45,897 nucleotides of DNA from NCBI GenBank assembly GCA_007695115.1, contig REEK01000103.1, forward strand, positions 1-45,897, given 5' to 3'. The notes below the pieces were generated by a model that saw only the letters and a program-made list of their open reading frames with translations, searched no databases and had not been told where the DNA came from. Below are positions 37,304 to 45,655 of this stretch, in pieces. The DNA is from Sphaerobacteraceae bacterium. Lineage in GTDB: Bacteria; Chloroflexota; Chloroflexia; Thermomicrobiales; Thermomicrobiaceae. Within the stretch, counting starts at the first letter, position 1. Every line of letters begins with the position of its first letter. The position numbers and the translations under genes were made by a program.

Positions 37304-38578
37304 TTAATGCTGCGGCGCAAGCCGCAAATTGCTGGTCCTCACGTTCTGGATGATGAACCGGCTGCTCGGAGCGGTGGGCATCTGTGTCATATCGATCTCC
37401 AGGTCCTGCTCCGGAATATCGTATTCCATTTCGGAGACGAGTTTCCGGACTGCGACCTTCATCAGGTCGATCGTGATCCACTCTCCCGGGCACCGATGAT
37501 TGCGGTAGTGGTCGCCACCACCCTGGGGGATCAGGCTGTAGGCACTCTCATCCCACTCCTGGAATCGCTCTGGACGAAACTCATCCGGATCCTTCCAGGA
37601 CCGGGGATCGCGGTTGGTTCCGTGCAGATCGAGCATGACTTTGCGTCCTTTCGGAAACGTGAAGCCGCGCCACTGGAACTCCTTGCGGACCCTCGCCATC
37701 TGGAAGGGGAAGAACGGATAGTAGCGGCGGACTTCCTGAACGAAGTGCTCGATCTCGTCATCGCCAGCAGTCTCCAACTTCCGGCGAATCTCGGGATGTT
37801 CATGAAGGGCCAGGGCAGCAAAGACGATGAATCTTCCAATTGCCACAGTGGGACGCAGAATGTTGAGAAGGTCGACCGCGGCATGGCCTTTATCCATCAA
37901 CCTCCCTTTGAGATCCCGATGATTGGCAATGATGTAGAGCGCGGTTCCTTCCGGAACCTGTCGTTTCTTTTTCCTGACGTCTTCGATGATGTCGCTGATC
38001 CACTTTTCGGTTCGGTCTCGGGCGCTCCGACCTCGCCAGTGGTCCCGACCAACCGCTCCTGCTCCTTCGATCATCGCTGCGATATCGGCCGTTCGCTCTT
38101 CCACGTCGGCTTCCTCCAGCGGAACTCCGGTCCACTCGAACACGGCCCGTGCAATGACTTTCTCCGCTTCATCGAGAAGGACGATGTCGTCGCGCATCGT
38201 CTCCCACTTGATGGCAGCGTCATCCCAGTGCCGGGACATAGCATTCTTCATGTCTCTGAGGCGCGCCGGGGTCATCATCGACATGAACATCTGTTTGCGC
38301 CAGCGGTGCGCTTCGTCGTCGAGCCCCTGCACTCCGCCTTCACCGAGAAGTGTCCTATTGACCCGGCCAGGGGTTACACCTTTCCGCTCGAAGAGTTCTT
38401 CATCGTAGAACAGCTTCGATGCTTCTTCTCCACTTATGCAGATGACCTTGCGGAGCATGAGCCGGGTTTCGAAGATGTCTGACTGAAGTTCTCTCTGGCG
38501 GTTCCTGACGAACTGATACCCATCCGATGCGAGTGAAAGCGTGTTGTCGAATCCGGAATCCTGCGGGATCTGAGCCAC
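37304..38578 (-). CDS. CYP152-type cytochrome P450 (fatty-acid peroxygenase)
   Basis: A 424-residue P450 resembling the CYP152 peroxygenases (P450-BSbeta, SPalpha, OleT), which use hydrogen peroxide to hydroxylate or decarboxylate fatty acids. The heme thiolate motif is HRCPGEW with Cys363, preceded by IPQGGGDHY. The diagnostic Arg-Pro pair is R242-P243 (LRPTVAIGRF), at exactly the numbers of P450-BSbeta. The position equal to residue 85 in BSbeta is Gln84 (GVQGLDDEAH), as in hydroxylating members; OleT decarboxylase has His. I predict alpha/beta-hydroxylation rather than terminal-alkene formation. No redox partner gene is nearby, which fits a peroxygenase. GTG 38578 has AGGAG 6 bases upstream. 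Confidence 0.9.
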   Translation of the reverse strand: MAQIPQDSGFDNTLSLASDGYQFVRNRQRELQSDIFETRLMLRKVICISGEEASKLFYDEELFERKGVTPGRVNRTLLGEGGVQGLDDEAHRWRKQMFMSMMTPARLRDMKNAMSRHWDDAAIKWETMRDDIVLLDEAEKVIARAVFEWTGVPLEEADVEERTADIAAMIEGAGAVGRDHWRGRSARDRTEKWISDIIEDVRKKKRQVPEGTALYIIANHRDLKGRLMDKGHAAVDLLNILRPTVAIGRFIVFAALALHEHPEIRRKLETAGDDEIEHFVQEVRRYYPFFPFQMARVRKEFQWRGFTFPKGRKVMLDLHGTNRDPRSWKDPDEFRPERFQEWDESAYSLIPQGGGDHYRNHRCPGEWITIDLMKVAVRKLVSEMEYDIPEQDLEIDMTQMPTAPSSRFIIQNVRTSNLRLAPQH

Positions 38579-40862: not shown

Positions 40863-41606
40863 ATGGCAGACGCTACTGGCTGGATGGAAGACGATTCGCA
40901 GAAGTTCATCGAGCTGGGAGACCTGGTGGTTCCTTCCCGCTACGAACAGGCACGCCTGATCTGTGATCTGATCCCTGCATCTCCCGGAGACCATTTCATG
41001 GGCGTCGATATTGGCTGTGGTGAAGGGTTGCTTTCGAAAACAATTCTGGAGCGGTTTCCCGAAGCGCAGATGACGTTGCTGGATGGCTCCGAAGCGATGC
41101 TCACCCGGGCTGCCGAGAACCTCGGTGAGTACGCCTATCAGATCGATCTTCGTCAGTTCGACCTGAATCAGACGGACTGGCTGGATGAGCTTCCACGCCG
41201 GTTCCGGTGCATCGTGTCATCACTGGCGATTCATCATCTCGACGATGCGGGCAAACAGGCTCTGTATCAGGCGCTGTTCGATCATCTGGCCCCCGGTGGA
41301 GTGATGCTTATCGCTGATCTGGTGCATCCGCCAAACGAGCAGATCGCCGAAGCATGGGCCAATGAATGGGATCGGGATGTGCGGGAGCAGTCGCTGGCTC
41401 GTACGGGGTCTCTGCACGCGTTTGATCAGTTCCAGAATGGCTGGAATCACTATCGCACGCCGGATGTCGAGGTCGATAAACCGTCGCTGCTGCTCGAGCA
41501 GCTGCAGTGGCTGGAAGATATCGGGTTTGCCGGGGTCGGGTGCTTCTGGCTCCGGGCAGGGCATGCCGTATTCGGTGGATACCGGCCGGCTACAGATCGC
41601 GGTTGA
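40863..41606 (+). CDS. Class I SAM-dependent methyltransferase
   Basis: A 247-residue methyltransferase. Motif I is MGVDIGCGEGLLS (about residues 42-56), with LLDGSEAML as motif II and IHHLDD and GGVMLIADLVHP as motifs IV and V. The substrate is unknown. GGGGGAG precedes the ATG by about 6 bases. Its 3' end overlaps the convergent VOC gene by 17 bp. Confidence 0.88.
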   Translation: MADATGWMEDDSQKFIELGDLVVPSRYEQARLICDLIPASPGDHFMGVDIGCGEGLLSKTILERFPEAQMTLLDGSEAMLTRAAENLGEYAYQIDLRQFDLNQTDWLDELPRRFRCIVSSLAIHHLDDAGKQALYQALFDHLAPGGVMLIADLVHPPNEQIAEAWANEWDRDVREQSLARTGSLHAFDQFQNGWNHYRTPDVEVDKPSLLLEQLQWLEDIGFAGVGCFWLRAGHAVFGGYRPATDRG

Positions 41607-42042
41607 CGCTCTGATTGAGTTGGCGTAACGTCTCGGACCAGCGCGTTTGCGGTAGTTCGGTGTTGAGCTCGATCAGATTGCCGTCTGGATCACGAAGATG
41701 GGCCGACCGTATTCCGTGATCCGGCTGATCAGCCGGCGGGTTGACCAGTGTTGCTCCGTGCTCAATGAGCCGGTTGGCCCGGAAGTCGACGTCATCCACC
41801 GCGATGATCAGCATGACCGGATCCTGCCCCGATCGTTCCGTCGATTGATCGGCGGTGTCAACCATCTCCGCCATCCGCTGACGAGAGAAGATCGCCAGAT
41901 CGACTCCAGCGCCGGTATCGAGATCGGCATAGACACCATCCTCATCACCCCATCGAACCCGAAACTCCAGCGCATCCCGGTAGAACCGGAACAGCTCCGG
42001 ATACTGTCGGGTAAGCAGGCGGACATGGCTGAGTCGCATCAT
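41590..42042 (-). CDS. VOC-family (glyoxalase-like) protein
   Basis: A 150-residue vicinal oxygen chelate protein with two beta-alpha-beta-beta-beta modules. It begins MMRLSHVRLLTRQYPELFRF and ends with HLRDPDGNLIELNTEL, the usual metal-ligand Glu region. Family members bind small molecules, antibiotics or metals; specific function unknown. It lies 13 bp after the phosphorylase-like gene and likely shares its transcript. Confidence 0.88.
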   Translation of the reverse strand: MMRLSHVRLLTRQYPELFRFYRDALEFRVRWGDEDGVYADLDTGAGVDLAIFSRQRMAEMVDTADQSTERSGQDPVMLIIAVDDVDFRANRLIEHGATLVNPPADQPDHGIRSAHLRDPDGNLIELNTELPQTRWSETLRQLNQSVNRDL

Positions 42043-42055
42043 GGCTGGCTTCCGA

Positions 42056-43855
42056 TCATGTGTCTCGCGATAGCACTCCGGTCAGTTCGAATATGCGTTG
42101 AAGGATCAGCAGGGTCGAAGCGTAGGTTGAATCCATCCCGTAGTAGGAAAGGCCGCGGGCACCAAGCGTCTGCGCCCGGGTATACGGGGTATCCGATGCG
42201 TAGTGGATGATCCCGAGATCGAACGGCAACTCGACTAGATTGACGTTCTCGTTGTGGCCAAATCGGGTCAGGAATGTATCTTCGAAAATCGCGCTGAGGT
42301 ATGGCCCAGCTTCCATCTCGACCACGGTGAAGTTCTCCCGGTAGAAGAAGTCGAGATACTCCCGGTTCTGGAGATAGGTGCCGAGTACAGTGACTGCGCG
42401 CTGATGATCCAGCGCTGACCCGTAGACCAGAAACGGCGAGAAATCTTCGGAGGCAAAAACGTTCTGGAACCAGTAGGTATTGCCGCTGTGCTCATCGTAG
42501 ACCACGTCGGAGAGCATCACGTCGCCGATGCGGGCGTTGAGGGTGGCCGCTTTTCCCAGAACGTAGATGCCTTTGAGTTGATGGGTGTTGATCGCGATCT
42601 GGTTGAGGATGTGGTAAGCGCTCATACCCAGTGGATAGTTGATGTTGACGATGACGGCGTCGCTCTGCGATGGATCGATCGTGCCGAGTGCGGCCAGCCG
42701 CGGATCGAATCCGTCAGGCGACAGTTTGTTGACCTCGATTATCTGGACGTCGGCATCGAGGACACTGCCCGGGTCGATCGAGGTGATCCCTACGGTTTCT
42801 TCCTCGTCGTTTCGTGCCCGGCGCTGTTCCGGGTGATCGTGGAAGAACTGACGGGCGCTGAAGTAGAGAAAGTTGTCCCAACTGCTGCGGGTATCGCCAG
42901 ATCGAAGCTTCTCCAGCTCTTCGATCAGTTCTGGATCCTGTGTCTCTTCCACGTACTGGACCAACTGATCCCGGCGGCGTCGCGCGGTGCCAGACAGGGT
43001 ATTGACGATGCTGTGCGTGTTCGAGGAGACGAAATAGAGTGGGCGATCGTCCAGTGACTTCTCTCGCAGAAGCCGCTCGATCGGCCTCCACCAGGATCGG
43101 GTGCTCCGGGTATAGCCGGCATAGGTTCCGCCGTGCATCTGGATCGTCAGCCGCTTTCGCTCCCGGGCGATGCAGCGGATGGTGTCGGCGAATTCGCTGC
43201 CCCAGGCGGTTTTCAATCGATCCCAGTCTCGATCGGTCATCCCCAGCGCGTCCCGTATCGCGGGTTCCTCGTCTTCGGTGATGTCCCGGTCTTCGACCAT
43301 TTCCATCAGGCTGGGCGACTCCTGGAAGATCGTGTGCATCTTGTTCCACTCGATTTGCCAGGCGACGATGGTGGGGAGCAGATCATCGAGATCCGAGGTC
43401 GAGGCAACGTAGACCGCCAGCGTCCCTTCACCGTTGTCGTACCAGCGGCGCCGTCGACCGGGTGCCGTGACCGGCTCCCAGTTCTCGAGATCGTCGTACC
43501 CATGTCTGGCGAAGACATACGGCGACTGTCCGAGCGCGATGTGGCGGGTGTGAACGATCGAACGGGGCAATCGCATGGTGCTGTACATGAACGCGTTCAT
43601 GTCCGGAATCGGTTCCGCAGCTCCATCCGGAATCGGTTCCGCAGCTCCAGCGTGGAGGGATGATTCGATATTCAGATGTGCCGGGACGAGTGTCTCGATC
43701 TTGATCGGGCCGGTACTGCGCAACAACGTGTTGTAGGTGCGAACGTAGAGGTCTACTTCACGCTTTCCGGCAAGGTTCGGCTCAGTTCGAGGTCGTCCAT
43801 GACGCGACACCTCGGATTCGATCGATGAATCGTGGCGGAGTTCGGAAGAACGCAC
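42056..43855 (-). CDS. Uncharacterised 599-residue protein with phosphorylase-like C-terminal domain
   Basis: I do not recognise the N-terminal 370 residues, which form a globular, aromatic-rich domain without membrane segments. The C-terminal region (about 385-599) looks like a nucleoside phosphorylase/nucleosidase fold: GIYVLGKAATLNARIGDVML near 425-445, VVEMEAGPYLSAIF around M514, and YASDTPYTRAQTLGARG with D555. These correspond to the MEs/MEA and SD motifs of purine phosphorylases. Residues about 70-86 contain a tandem GAAEPIPD duplication. GTG 43855 stands 7 bases after a perfect AGGAGG. It follows a small membrane protein and two-component genes and precedes the VOC gene. Catalysis is inferred only. 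Confidence 0.7.
   Translation of the reverse strand: MRSSELRHDSSIESEVSRHGRPRTEPNLAGKREVDLYVRTYNTLLRSTGPIKIETLVPAHLNIESSLHAGAAEPIPDGAAEPIPDMNAFMYSTMRLPRSIVHTRHIALGQSPYVFARHGYDDLENWEPVTAPGRRRRWYDNGEGTLAVYVASTSDLDDLLPTIVAWQIEWNKMHTIFQESPSLMEMVEDRDITEDEEPAIRDALGMTDRDWDRLKTAWGSEFADTIRCIARERKRLTIQMHGGTYAGYTRSTRSWWRPIERLLREKSLDDRPLYFVSSNTHSIVNTLSGTARRRRDQLVQYVEETQDPELIEELEKLRSGDTRSSWDNFLYFSARQFFHDHPEQRRARNDEEETVGITSIDPGSVLDADVQIIEVNKLSPDGFDPRLAALGTIDPSQSDAVIVNINYPLGMSAYHILNQIAINTHQLKGIYVLGKAATLNARIGDVMLSDVVYDEHSGNTYWFQNVFASEDFSPFLVYGSALDHQRAVTVLGTYLQNREYLDFFYRENFTVVEMEAGPYLSAIFEDTFLTRFGHNENVNLVELPFDLGIIHYASDTPYTRAQTLGARGLSYYGMDSTYASTLLILQRIFELTGVLSRDT
43602..43649. repeat. 24-bp perfect tandem duplication
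   Basis: Two identical 24-bp units (43602-43625 and 43626-43649), beginning TCCGGAATCGG, lie in frame in the phosphorylase-like gene. They encode two copies of GAAEPIPD. The most likely origin is replication slippage. Confidence 0.9.
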
Positions 43856-43917
43856 GCGGACACCTCCTGTCGATCGGCTATGCGAATTCCGGGCATTATA
43901 CCGATGATGGAAGGTGG

Positions 43918-44172
43918 CTAGGGCTGCTGACGGCGGCGGTTTCGACGAAAAACCTCATCCTGCACCACGATGAGCACTCCGGCAGTCCCGAGAAAGAGGA
44001 AGACGAAGCCGGACCAGGTGAAGGATGCGGCAATGCCGCTACCGAATCCACCGGCGGCCAGCAGTGCCATCGACCAGCCGATACCGGCTGCGATCCGCCC
44101 GATCTTGATGTAGCGACCGAGGACGATGATCACGCAGAACAGGGTGATGCCGAGGACGCTCCAGAGAAGCAT
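43918..44172 (-). CDS. Small membrane protein downstream of the histidine kinase
   Basis: An 84-residue hydrophobic protein with about three predicted helices (LLWSVLGITLFCVIIVLG, IAAGIGWSMALLAAGGFG, GFVFLFLGTAGVLIVV) and a basic C-terminal tail. ATG 44172 has GGAGAG 7 bases upstream and lies 4 bases beyond the kinase stop, so the two are almost certainly translated from one message. It could be an accessory of the kinase. No recognised family. Confidence 0.68.
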   Translation of the reverse strand: MLLWSVLGITLFCVIIVLGRYIKIGRIAAGIGWSMALLAAGGFGSGIAASFTWSGFVFLFLGTAGVLIVVQDEVFRRNRRRQQP

Positions 44173-44176
44173 CCAG

Positions 44177-45655
44177 CTACTCTCCAGCCGGTGACTGGCG
44201 AGTCGTGAGCATCGGAGTGCTCGGCTCATCACGTTCAGTCTGGACGCGCTCGGGGAGTGCCAGCGGCAGGCGGATCGTCATCCGGGTACCGGCATGTGGC
44301 TGGCTGTACGCACTGATGTGACCAGCGTGGCAGTCGGCGATCCACTTGGCGATCGCCAGGCCGAGCCCGGCGCCGGTGGTTCCGCCATTTCGCGCTTCAT
44401 TGCCGCGATAGAACCGGTCGAAGATCCGGGTGACCTGCTCGTCGGTCATCCCTGGCCCTTCGTCGATCACGTCGATCCGGGCAAATCCGCCTTCAGCGCT
44501 TGTTCGCAGCATGATCGTCTTGCCGGCCGGCGTATAGGCGAAGGCGTTGTCCAGCAGGATCAGAAGGAGCTGGCGTAGCTGATCCGGATCGCCATAGATG
44601 TCGAGGTCTTCGCCGAGATCGGTATGGAACAGGTGGTCGGTCGCCAGTGGCGTTGCCACTCTGGCGGCATCCCGGACAACTTTTTCGAGCGTAATCAGTT
44701 GCATATCCGGTCGCCAGCCGACATCGGCGCGGGCCAGAGTGAGCAGATGCTCGACGAGACGCCCCATGCGCTCGGCTTCGTCGCGGATGTCGCCCAATCC
44801 TTCACGCATGTCGTCCCGGTTCATCCGGTCGCTGTCCAGCTGCCGGAGCAGGATCTCGGCATTGCCACGGAGCGCGGTGAGCGGGGTCCGCAGTTCGTGG
44901 GATGCGTCGCCCACGAAACGGCGCTCGGCATTGAAGGCAGCATCCAGCCTGGCGAGCATATGGTTGAACGTCTCGGCCAGTTGCTGGATCTCGTCGTTGG
45001 TGGCAGGCGTCCGGATCTGATGCTTCAGTTCCCCGGACTGTCCGACCGAGCGAACGGCTTCGGTAATGTGCGTCAGTGGGCGGAGTGACTGCCCGGTCAA
45101 CAGATAGGAGCCGATGGCGGTCGTCGTCAAGCCGATGAGGAATCCGCTGAAGAGGAACAACTGAAGCTGTTCCAGTGCCTGCTCCATCGGACGGAGTGAT
45201 TCGAACGCCTGAACGGTGCCGAACAGGACACCCTCTTCGCTTTTGAGCGGGGCGCTGATCACCCGCACGTCGCTGCCGGACAGCGTCGTCGTGAAGTAGA
45301 CTGCGTCGCCTTCGAGATTCGACTGGACGACGGATTCGGGGATTTCGAGGAAAAGTTCGTACTCGTCGGATCTGCTCTGCGTTTCGCCGGCGGCGTTGGC
45401 TACGTGGAGATGCAGCCCGGGATAGATAAACGGATCGAGGTTGGCAGGAGCCCGGAGCACTGGCTGACCCCCGACGCCGATAGCCGGATCGATCTGAGAC
45501 TGTTCCCGGTAGTTGTCGGCCACGGTGATAAGACGGCGATCAACCTCGGCCTCGAGTGAACGCGTCAGCATCTGATAGACGCCGAGACTCACCGAGACGA
45601 GGACTACCGCCATGAGCATTGTCGAAAGAAGGACGATTCTGGCACGAATGGACAT
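44177..45655 (-). CDS. Membrane sensor histidine kinase
   Basis: A 492-residue classical kinase. It has TM1 (about 7-27), an extracytoplasmic sensor region (28-165), TM2 (about 167-187), HAMP (about 188-240), HisKA with His253 in DASHELRTPLTALRGN, and HATPase with LLILLDNAFAYTPAGK, DEGPGM and TGAGLGLAIAKW. It should phosphorylate the OmpR-type regulator encoded directly upstream, whose end is 48 bp before this start. The ligand is unknown. Confidence 0.93.
   Translation of the reverse strand: MSIRARIVLLSTMLMAVVLVSVSLGVYQMLTRSLEAEVDRRLITVADNYREQSQIDPAIGVGGQPVLRAPANLDPFIYPGLHLHVANAAGETQSRSDEYELFLEIPESVVQSNLEGDAVYFTTTLSGSDVRVISAPLKSEEGVLFGTVQAFESLRPMEQALEQLQLFLFSGFLIGLTTTAIGSYLLTGQSLRPLTHITEAVRSVGQSGELKHQIRTPATNDEIQQLAETFNHMLARLDAAFNAERRFVGDASHELRTPLTALRGNAEILLRQLDSDRMNRDDMREGLGDIRDEAERMGRLVEHLLTLARADVGWRPDMQLITLEKVVRDAARVATPLATDHLFHTDLGEDLDIYGDPDQLRQLLLILLDNAFAYTPAGKTIMLRTSAEGGFARIDVIDEGPGMTDEQVTRIFDRFYRGNEARNGGTTGAGLGLAIAKWIADCHAGHISAYSQPHAGTRMTIRLPLALPERVQTERDEPSTPMLTTRQSPAGE

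Follow-up and report, generated by a model that had tools for sequence, protein, structure and literature searches.

DUF6909, a protein family with a predicted nucleoside phosphorylase/nucleosidase fold, encoded by a Sphaerobacteraceae bacterium

AMP nucleosidase converts AMP and water to adenine and ribose 5-phosphate (EC 3.2.2.4). In PNP, MTAN, and AMP nucleosidase, an equivalent aspartate protonates the leaving base, and in Escherichia coli DeoD this general acid is the aspartate of the SD motif. PNP and uridine phosphorylase (UP) also borrow an active-site arginine from a neighboring chain. The active site of Klebsiella Amn is lined by N205, M404, E405, and D428, with H188 and Y189 contributed by the apposed chain (PMC9584410). 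PNP-type effectors are also found in Detocs and CBASS, where they cleave ATP (PMC11249213, PMC10952713).

The window, i.e., the whole stretch of 45,897 nucleotides of Sphaerobacteraceae DNA analyzed here, carries a gene on its minus strand whose main sequence features are as follows.

42056..43855, minus strand: DUF6909 (PF21850) gene, 599 amino acids with a GTG start (open reading frame call and Pfam; relatives 40 to 98% identical)
43863..43868, minus strand: ribosome-binding site AGGAGG, 7 nt 5′ of the GTG, read directly from the sequence
43886..43900, minus strand: TATAATGCCCGGAAT, a -10-like element shared, between diverging flanks, by four Thermomicrobiaceae genomes
43601..43648, minus strand: tandem duplication of eight residues, GAAEPIPD-GAAEPIPD (residues 70 to 85), found by alignment

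According to a Pfam scan, residues 53 to 590 of the encoded protein match DUF6909 over the entire profile (positions 1 to 535 of 535) with an E value of 6.5e-217 and 721.5 bits, against a curated cut-off of 27. The scan otherwise gave a weak match alone, between residues 409 to 472 and the phosphorylase superfamily (PF01048, PNP_UDP_1; E = 0.0059), which at 16.5 bits falls below the curated cut-off of 25.1 bits. Nothing useful was returned by an NCBIfam search with the window protein, and sequence searches of the PDB with the protein and two profiles gave no meaningful match. The window protein is an ordinary member of a catalogued but functionally uncharacterized family, which is not named in any paper that we found in the open literature. 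The preliminary description of this locus was right that the function is undescribed; its view that the N-terminal part matches nothing has to be abandoned, since a single Pfam family spans residues 53 to 590 from end to end. It had also set the novelty of the protein against a full-length match to a characterized enzyme family. The match found is strong and full length, but the family to which it leads is uncharacterized.

The GGAGG of the ribosome-binding site is kept in three sister genomes. The 15-bp element lies 31 to 45 bases upstream of the start, occurs in exact form at a single place in the window's genome, and has sister copies 5′ of DUF6909 at L033:415, L034:7954, and L043:7956. An upstream scan found no -35-like hexamer to accompany it. 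The element resembles a -10 sequence and is probably an own promoter or operator for DUF6909, and its conservation amid diverging flanks suggests that the gene can also be transcribed independently. The duplication, by which alone the window copy differs from the family, adds 24 bp next to a conserved PDMNAF motif and is missing from every one of the 17 relatives in the alignment, even from L043, which is 98% identical. It is either a strain variant or an assembly error.

The fold of the protein was examined in an AlphaFold2 model computed from an 18-sequence alignment (pLDDT 78.4, pTM 0.77), which gave the following layout.

43106..43771, minus strand: N-terminal domain of about 220 residues (residues ~29 to 250; model and conservation)
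42071..43105, minus strand: NP-I (nucleoside phosphorylase/nucleosidase) fold (residues ~251 to 595; predicted model and structural matches)
42671..42973, minus strand: helical insertion of about 100 residues between strands 1 and 2 (residues ~295 to 395; model secondary structure)

The best PDB matches of the model in Foldseek were MTA/SAH nucleosidases (E = 1e-5), and AMP nucleosidase 1t8s/2guw matched with an E value of 3e-4. VIA-align superposed model residues ~250 to 595 on PNP, UP, and MTAN with Z scores of 17 to 17.7 over about 210 residues (root mean square deviation of about 3 Å), and from this span strand 1 of the NP-I fold was placed in YFVSSNTHS (residues 274 to 282) of the predicted model. 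The C-terminal part is thus phosphorylase-like, as the preliminary description had proposed from its motifs. The boundary that it drew at residue 370 moves to about 250, where the NP-I fold begins in the model, and roughly a third of the supposedly unknown 370-residue domain therefore belongs to the enzyme fold. For the N-terminal domain, structure prediction led to no confident PDB match. Folded alone from the sequence of a close sister, this domain reached a pLDDT of 82 and a pTM of 0.80. Its weak best matches were mostly uridine phosphorylases (Foldseek E values of 0.09 and worse; VIA Z scores of at most 4.3), which amount to one weak match recurring over near-identical chains, and a Z score below 8 can arise by chance. 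Profile comparisons of the domain with AMN, UP, PNP, MTAN, and its own C-terminal domain gave nothing significant, and a viral structure library returned only weak NP-I matches to the model.

Conservation was assessed in 25 divergent sequences from three clades, 22 to 65% identical to the window protein, in which 31 columns are invariant. The candidate active-site features are listed below.

43013..43021, minus strand: N279-T280-H281, following strand 1 (no variation at N279 or H281 among 25 divergent members)
42551..42556, minus strand: G434-K435, glycine loop (K435 invariant; putatively in the place of E. coli PNP Ser90 by motif alignment)
42311..42319, minus strand: E513-M514-E515, putative ribose/base-binding motif within VEMEA (conservation and DeoD alignment)
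42191..42193, minus strand: D555, candidate general acid of an SDxP motif (its SD aligns with that of E. coli DeoD)

The invariant residues of the NP-I fold include N279, H281, G434-K435-A436, Q496, E513-M514-E515, and S554-D555-x-P557. In the N-terminal domain, R95, R134, R136, D158, E169, and K172 (window protein numbering) are invariant, a pattern that speaks for anionic-ligand binding and against a variable sensor. Both motifs singled out in the preliminary description, VEMEA (residues 512 to 516) and ASDTP (residues 553 to 557), are present in the protein. When the profile was aligned to that of E. coli DeoD (a single comparison, E = 8e-4), EMEA and SD came into register with the ribose-binding and general-acid motifs, respectively. 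The Met-Glu and Asp machinery of the NP-I superfamily thus appears to be present as M514, E515, and D555. The correspondences of strand 1 and of the lysine are based on the predicted model and motif spacing.

Of the 301 genomes sampled from the window's phylum, 100 carry DUF6909, almost all of them in a single copy, and it is missing from the 14 control genomes. The family is rarer in the samples of two other phyla, i.e., those of a Myxococcales MAG (14 of 189 genomes) and of a Planctomycetota MAG (9 of 198). In a maximum-likelihood tree of 86 rows, the families f24, f43, f45, and f17 each occupied one side of a branch (support of 97 to 100) and the Thermomicrobia sequences related to the window gene formed one group. 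This grouping by taxonomic family indicates that inheritance is largely vertical, even though the gene is missing from four genomes belonging to a sister genus. The window gene is chromosomal, and distant relatives lie on plasmids of Persicobacter (Bacteroidota). In Persicobacter locus L053 (10355-16341), a same-strand run with a distant DUF6909 encodes a SAM methyltransferase, DUF6909, an MscS-type channel, a WecB-type glycosyltransferase, and an epimerase, the first four genes of which recur in L054. In the two phyla surveyed for AMP nucleosidase (AMN), one of them the window's, no sampled genome had it, which leaves a comparison of its distribution with that of DUF6909 uninformative.

One clade of the family, clade B of Planctomycetota and Myxococcota, carries an additional domain. 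Eight scanned members (L082, L090-L094, L096, and L097) have a cNMP_binding domain (PF00027) N-terminal to DUF6909, with Pfam E values from 1e-12 to 1e-16. In the two members tested with PADLOC, this domain matched the sensor part of PycTIR models, which we take to be a generic cNMP-domain match, and no Pycsar-like cyclase was present among the 25 most frequent neighbor families of clade B. The fusion probably means that DUF6909 activity is allosterically controlled in this clade. The Pfam scan found no cNMP_binding domain in the window protein, which belongs to clade A, and the regulatory link suggested for this gene therefore applies to another part of the family. Elsewhere, a cNMP-domain protein that otherwise reads as a membrane protein carrying PH-like repeats is encoded 24 bp downstream of DUF6909 at L069:7547-9211 (minus strand), and a CRP-like regulator is encoded 81 bp upstream in L040. 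Both of these neighbors are possibly coincidental.

The gene neighborhood of DUF6909 in the window is as follows.

44177-45655, same strand as DUF6909: histidine kinase with HAMP, HisKA, and HATPase domains (domain scan)
43918-44232, same strand as DUF6909: 104-aa ORF with no Pfam or NCBIfam match
41590-42042, same strand as DUF6909: VOC/glyoxalase protein (PF00903; Pfam)

The order on this strand is histidine kinase, small ORF, DUF6909, and VOC protein, in agreement with the neighbors reported earlier. The response regulator is cut by the window end. In the sister loci L043 and L034, where the window gene order recurs, an OmpR-type regulator is found at that place. Elsewhere in the phylum the neighbors vary, and the two-component genes, which had been read as a link to signaling, are kept in close sister MAGs only. 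A conserved operon was rejected, since neighbors differ between genomes of the phylum: clustering over 46 loci found no family common to more than five, and among 30 immediate neighbors a Pfam scan showed mostly unrelated proteins. A translin-like neighbor (PRK14562 family) was seen at L036:8824-9543, L037:2348-2995, and L067:8855-9511. A functional link with this family was also rejected, as it occurs in 56 of 100 carriers and 111 of 201 non-carriers of DUF6909 (odds ratio of 1.03, i.e., chance). The translin-like family is present in 167 of the 301 genomes, and the NCBIfam PRK14562 models that its members match (e.g., NF011160) are titled “haloacid dehalogenase superfamily protein,” which looks wrong. 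Farther away in the window, at 37304-38578 (minus strand), lies a cytochrome P450 gene whose product resembles, by eye, fatty-acid peroxygenases (CYP152 type, CPGEWITI heme motif).

The reading that we favor, with a probability of roughly 0.45 and hence tentatively, is that the window protein is a soluble intracellular NP-I enzyme, an N-ribosidase that cleaves the N-glycosidic bond in a phosphorylated purine nucleoside and is most like AMP nucleosidase. D555 would protonate the leaving base and M514/E515 would hold the ribose, in an active site whose lining would include N279 and H281, which follow strand 1, and the invariant K435. The basic residues R95, R134, R136, and K172 of the N-terminal domain may bind the phosphate or complete the site. 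Membership in the family, the NP-I fold of the predicted model, and the alignment and invariance of these residues are computational results, from which we infer that the protein is catalytic, that it hydrolyzes rather than phosphorolyzes, that it acts on a nucleotide, and what its N-terminal domain does. By sequence comparison, AMN enzymes have TN[YF] after strand 1, [DE]ME, and SDxP, and DUF6909 has SSNxH, EME, and SDxP; E. coli DeoD, Udp, and MtnN have neither the Asn nor SDxP. With the strand-1 Asn (N279) in its deduced register, this pattern resembles that of AMP nucleosidase more closely than those of PNP, UP, or MTAN. However, hhalign comparisons of DUF6909 with AMP nucleosidase were not significant (E values of 0.08 to 0.21), and the Pfam scan found no match to AMNp_N (PF10423) in the window protein at E values up to 1. 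For these reasons, we do not file the protein as an AMP nucleosidase, but an AMP nucleosidase-like mode of action is the most likely. The phosphate-side residues K436 and R381 of AMN have no clear counterpart in DUF6909, and the genome context holds no pointer to purine salvage. Being single copy in nearly all carriers, with a family-wise gene tree and varied neighbors, the gene behaves like a housekeeping gene. The protein probably works in the cell's own breakdown of nucleotides, not as part of a new defense or signaling system.

An enzyme acting on nucleosides rather than nucleotides, either a salvage hydrolase or phosphorylase or else an MTA/SAH nucleosidase, and with an unusual N-terminal domain serving oligomerization only, would agree with the nearest Foldseek matches and with the similar placement of PNP, UP, and MTAN by VIA (Z of 17). 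We consider this unlikely. The phylum's genomes already hold one to eleven PF01048 proteins, the invariant Arg and Lys residues of the N-terminal domain suggest an anionic ligand, and the PGDPxR motif of phosphorylases and the MEEE that follows strand 1 in MTAN are absent, with SSNTHS at the strand-1 place of the predicted model instead. A bolder proposal, to which we give little credence, is that DUF6909 forms a separate class of nucleotide N-ribosidase whose N-terminal domain is a degenerate NP-I half acting as a pseudo-subunit in cis. The conserved arginines of the RRR stretch (residues 134 to 136) would then reach the C-terminal active site, replacing the neighbor-chain arginine of PNP and UP, and in clade B the fused domain would gate the enzyme, so that nucleotides would be consumed under the control of cyclic nucleotides. 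The basis of this proposal is the weak UP matches of the N-terminal domain, with no profile support for that link, together with the cNMP fusion, which is solid. Since one weak match is repeated by near-identical chains at Z scores possibly due to chance, the degenerate NP-I half is speculation.

There is a slim chance that DUF6909 is a catalytically dead NP-I-fold protein that serves as a nucleotide-binding scaffold or for storage. The PNP phosphate-site arginines are not recognizable in it, and non-catalytic NP-I relatives exist, for instance, plant storage proteins (PMC3751785). However, the M, E, and D shared by NP-I nucleosidases are invariant across three deeply split clades, which is unusual for dead enzymes. 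It seems very improbable that the protein is a regulated nucleotide-depleting effector of the Detocs or CBASS Cap17 PNP type, triggered by the two-component system or, in clade B, by cyclic nucleotides. The two-component genes, small ORF, and DUF6909 are co-directional here and in two sister MAGs, and the sensor-like fusion of clade B could be taken in the same sense. Nonetheless, PADLOC gave no match for the window protein (2023 release, from which newer systems may be missing) or for clade C, a PHROGs scan of the window protein was also empty, and no relatives of DUF6909 were found in phages or viral contigs. On these grounds, a role of the window protein as a defense effector was rejected as a candidate, and any defense role is unlikely. 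The gene tree is vertical, the neighboring regulator is an ordinary DNA-binding OmpR type, clade B has no cyclase among its 25 most frequent neighbor families, and the conserved -10-like element suggests independent transcription. The earlier suggestion of a signaling or defense effector is thus not borne out.

DUF6909 is widespread and strongly conserved, occurring in a third of the phylum's sampled genomes and in some Planctomycetota, Myxococcota, and Bacteroidota. With its placement in the NP-I superfamily and the naming of candidate catalytic residues, nucleosidase activity can be assayed directly. Should the cNMP fusions regulate the enzyme, it would be an allosterically controlled way of degrading nucleotides in phyla whose sampled genomes had no AMP nucleosidase.

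Among described systems, PycTIR and other cNMP-fused effectors share the N-terminal cNMP_binding domain of clade B, but the effector part there is DUF6909 instead of TIR, and the window protein has no cNMP domain at all. The Detocs and CBASS Cap17 ATP nucleosidases share the idea of an NP-I-type effector and, at this locus, the proximity of a two-component system, but DUF6909 has neither a receiver nor a SLOG domain and no defense context. MtnN, DeoD PNP, and Udp have the NP-I fold and the M-E and D machinery in common with DUF6909, which differs from them in its strand-1 motif, its extra N-terminal domain, and a PF01048 match below the cut-off. AMP nucleosidase (Amn; PF10423 + PF01048) differs from DUF6909 in that the latter has a larger N-terminal domain and a helical insertion in the NP-I fold, and is without AMNp_N and without clear counterparts of R381/K436, but both combine an N-terminal domain with an NP-I domain and share the strand-1 Asn, [DE]ME, and SDxP.
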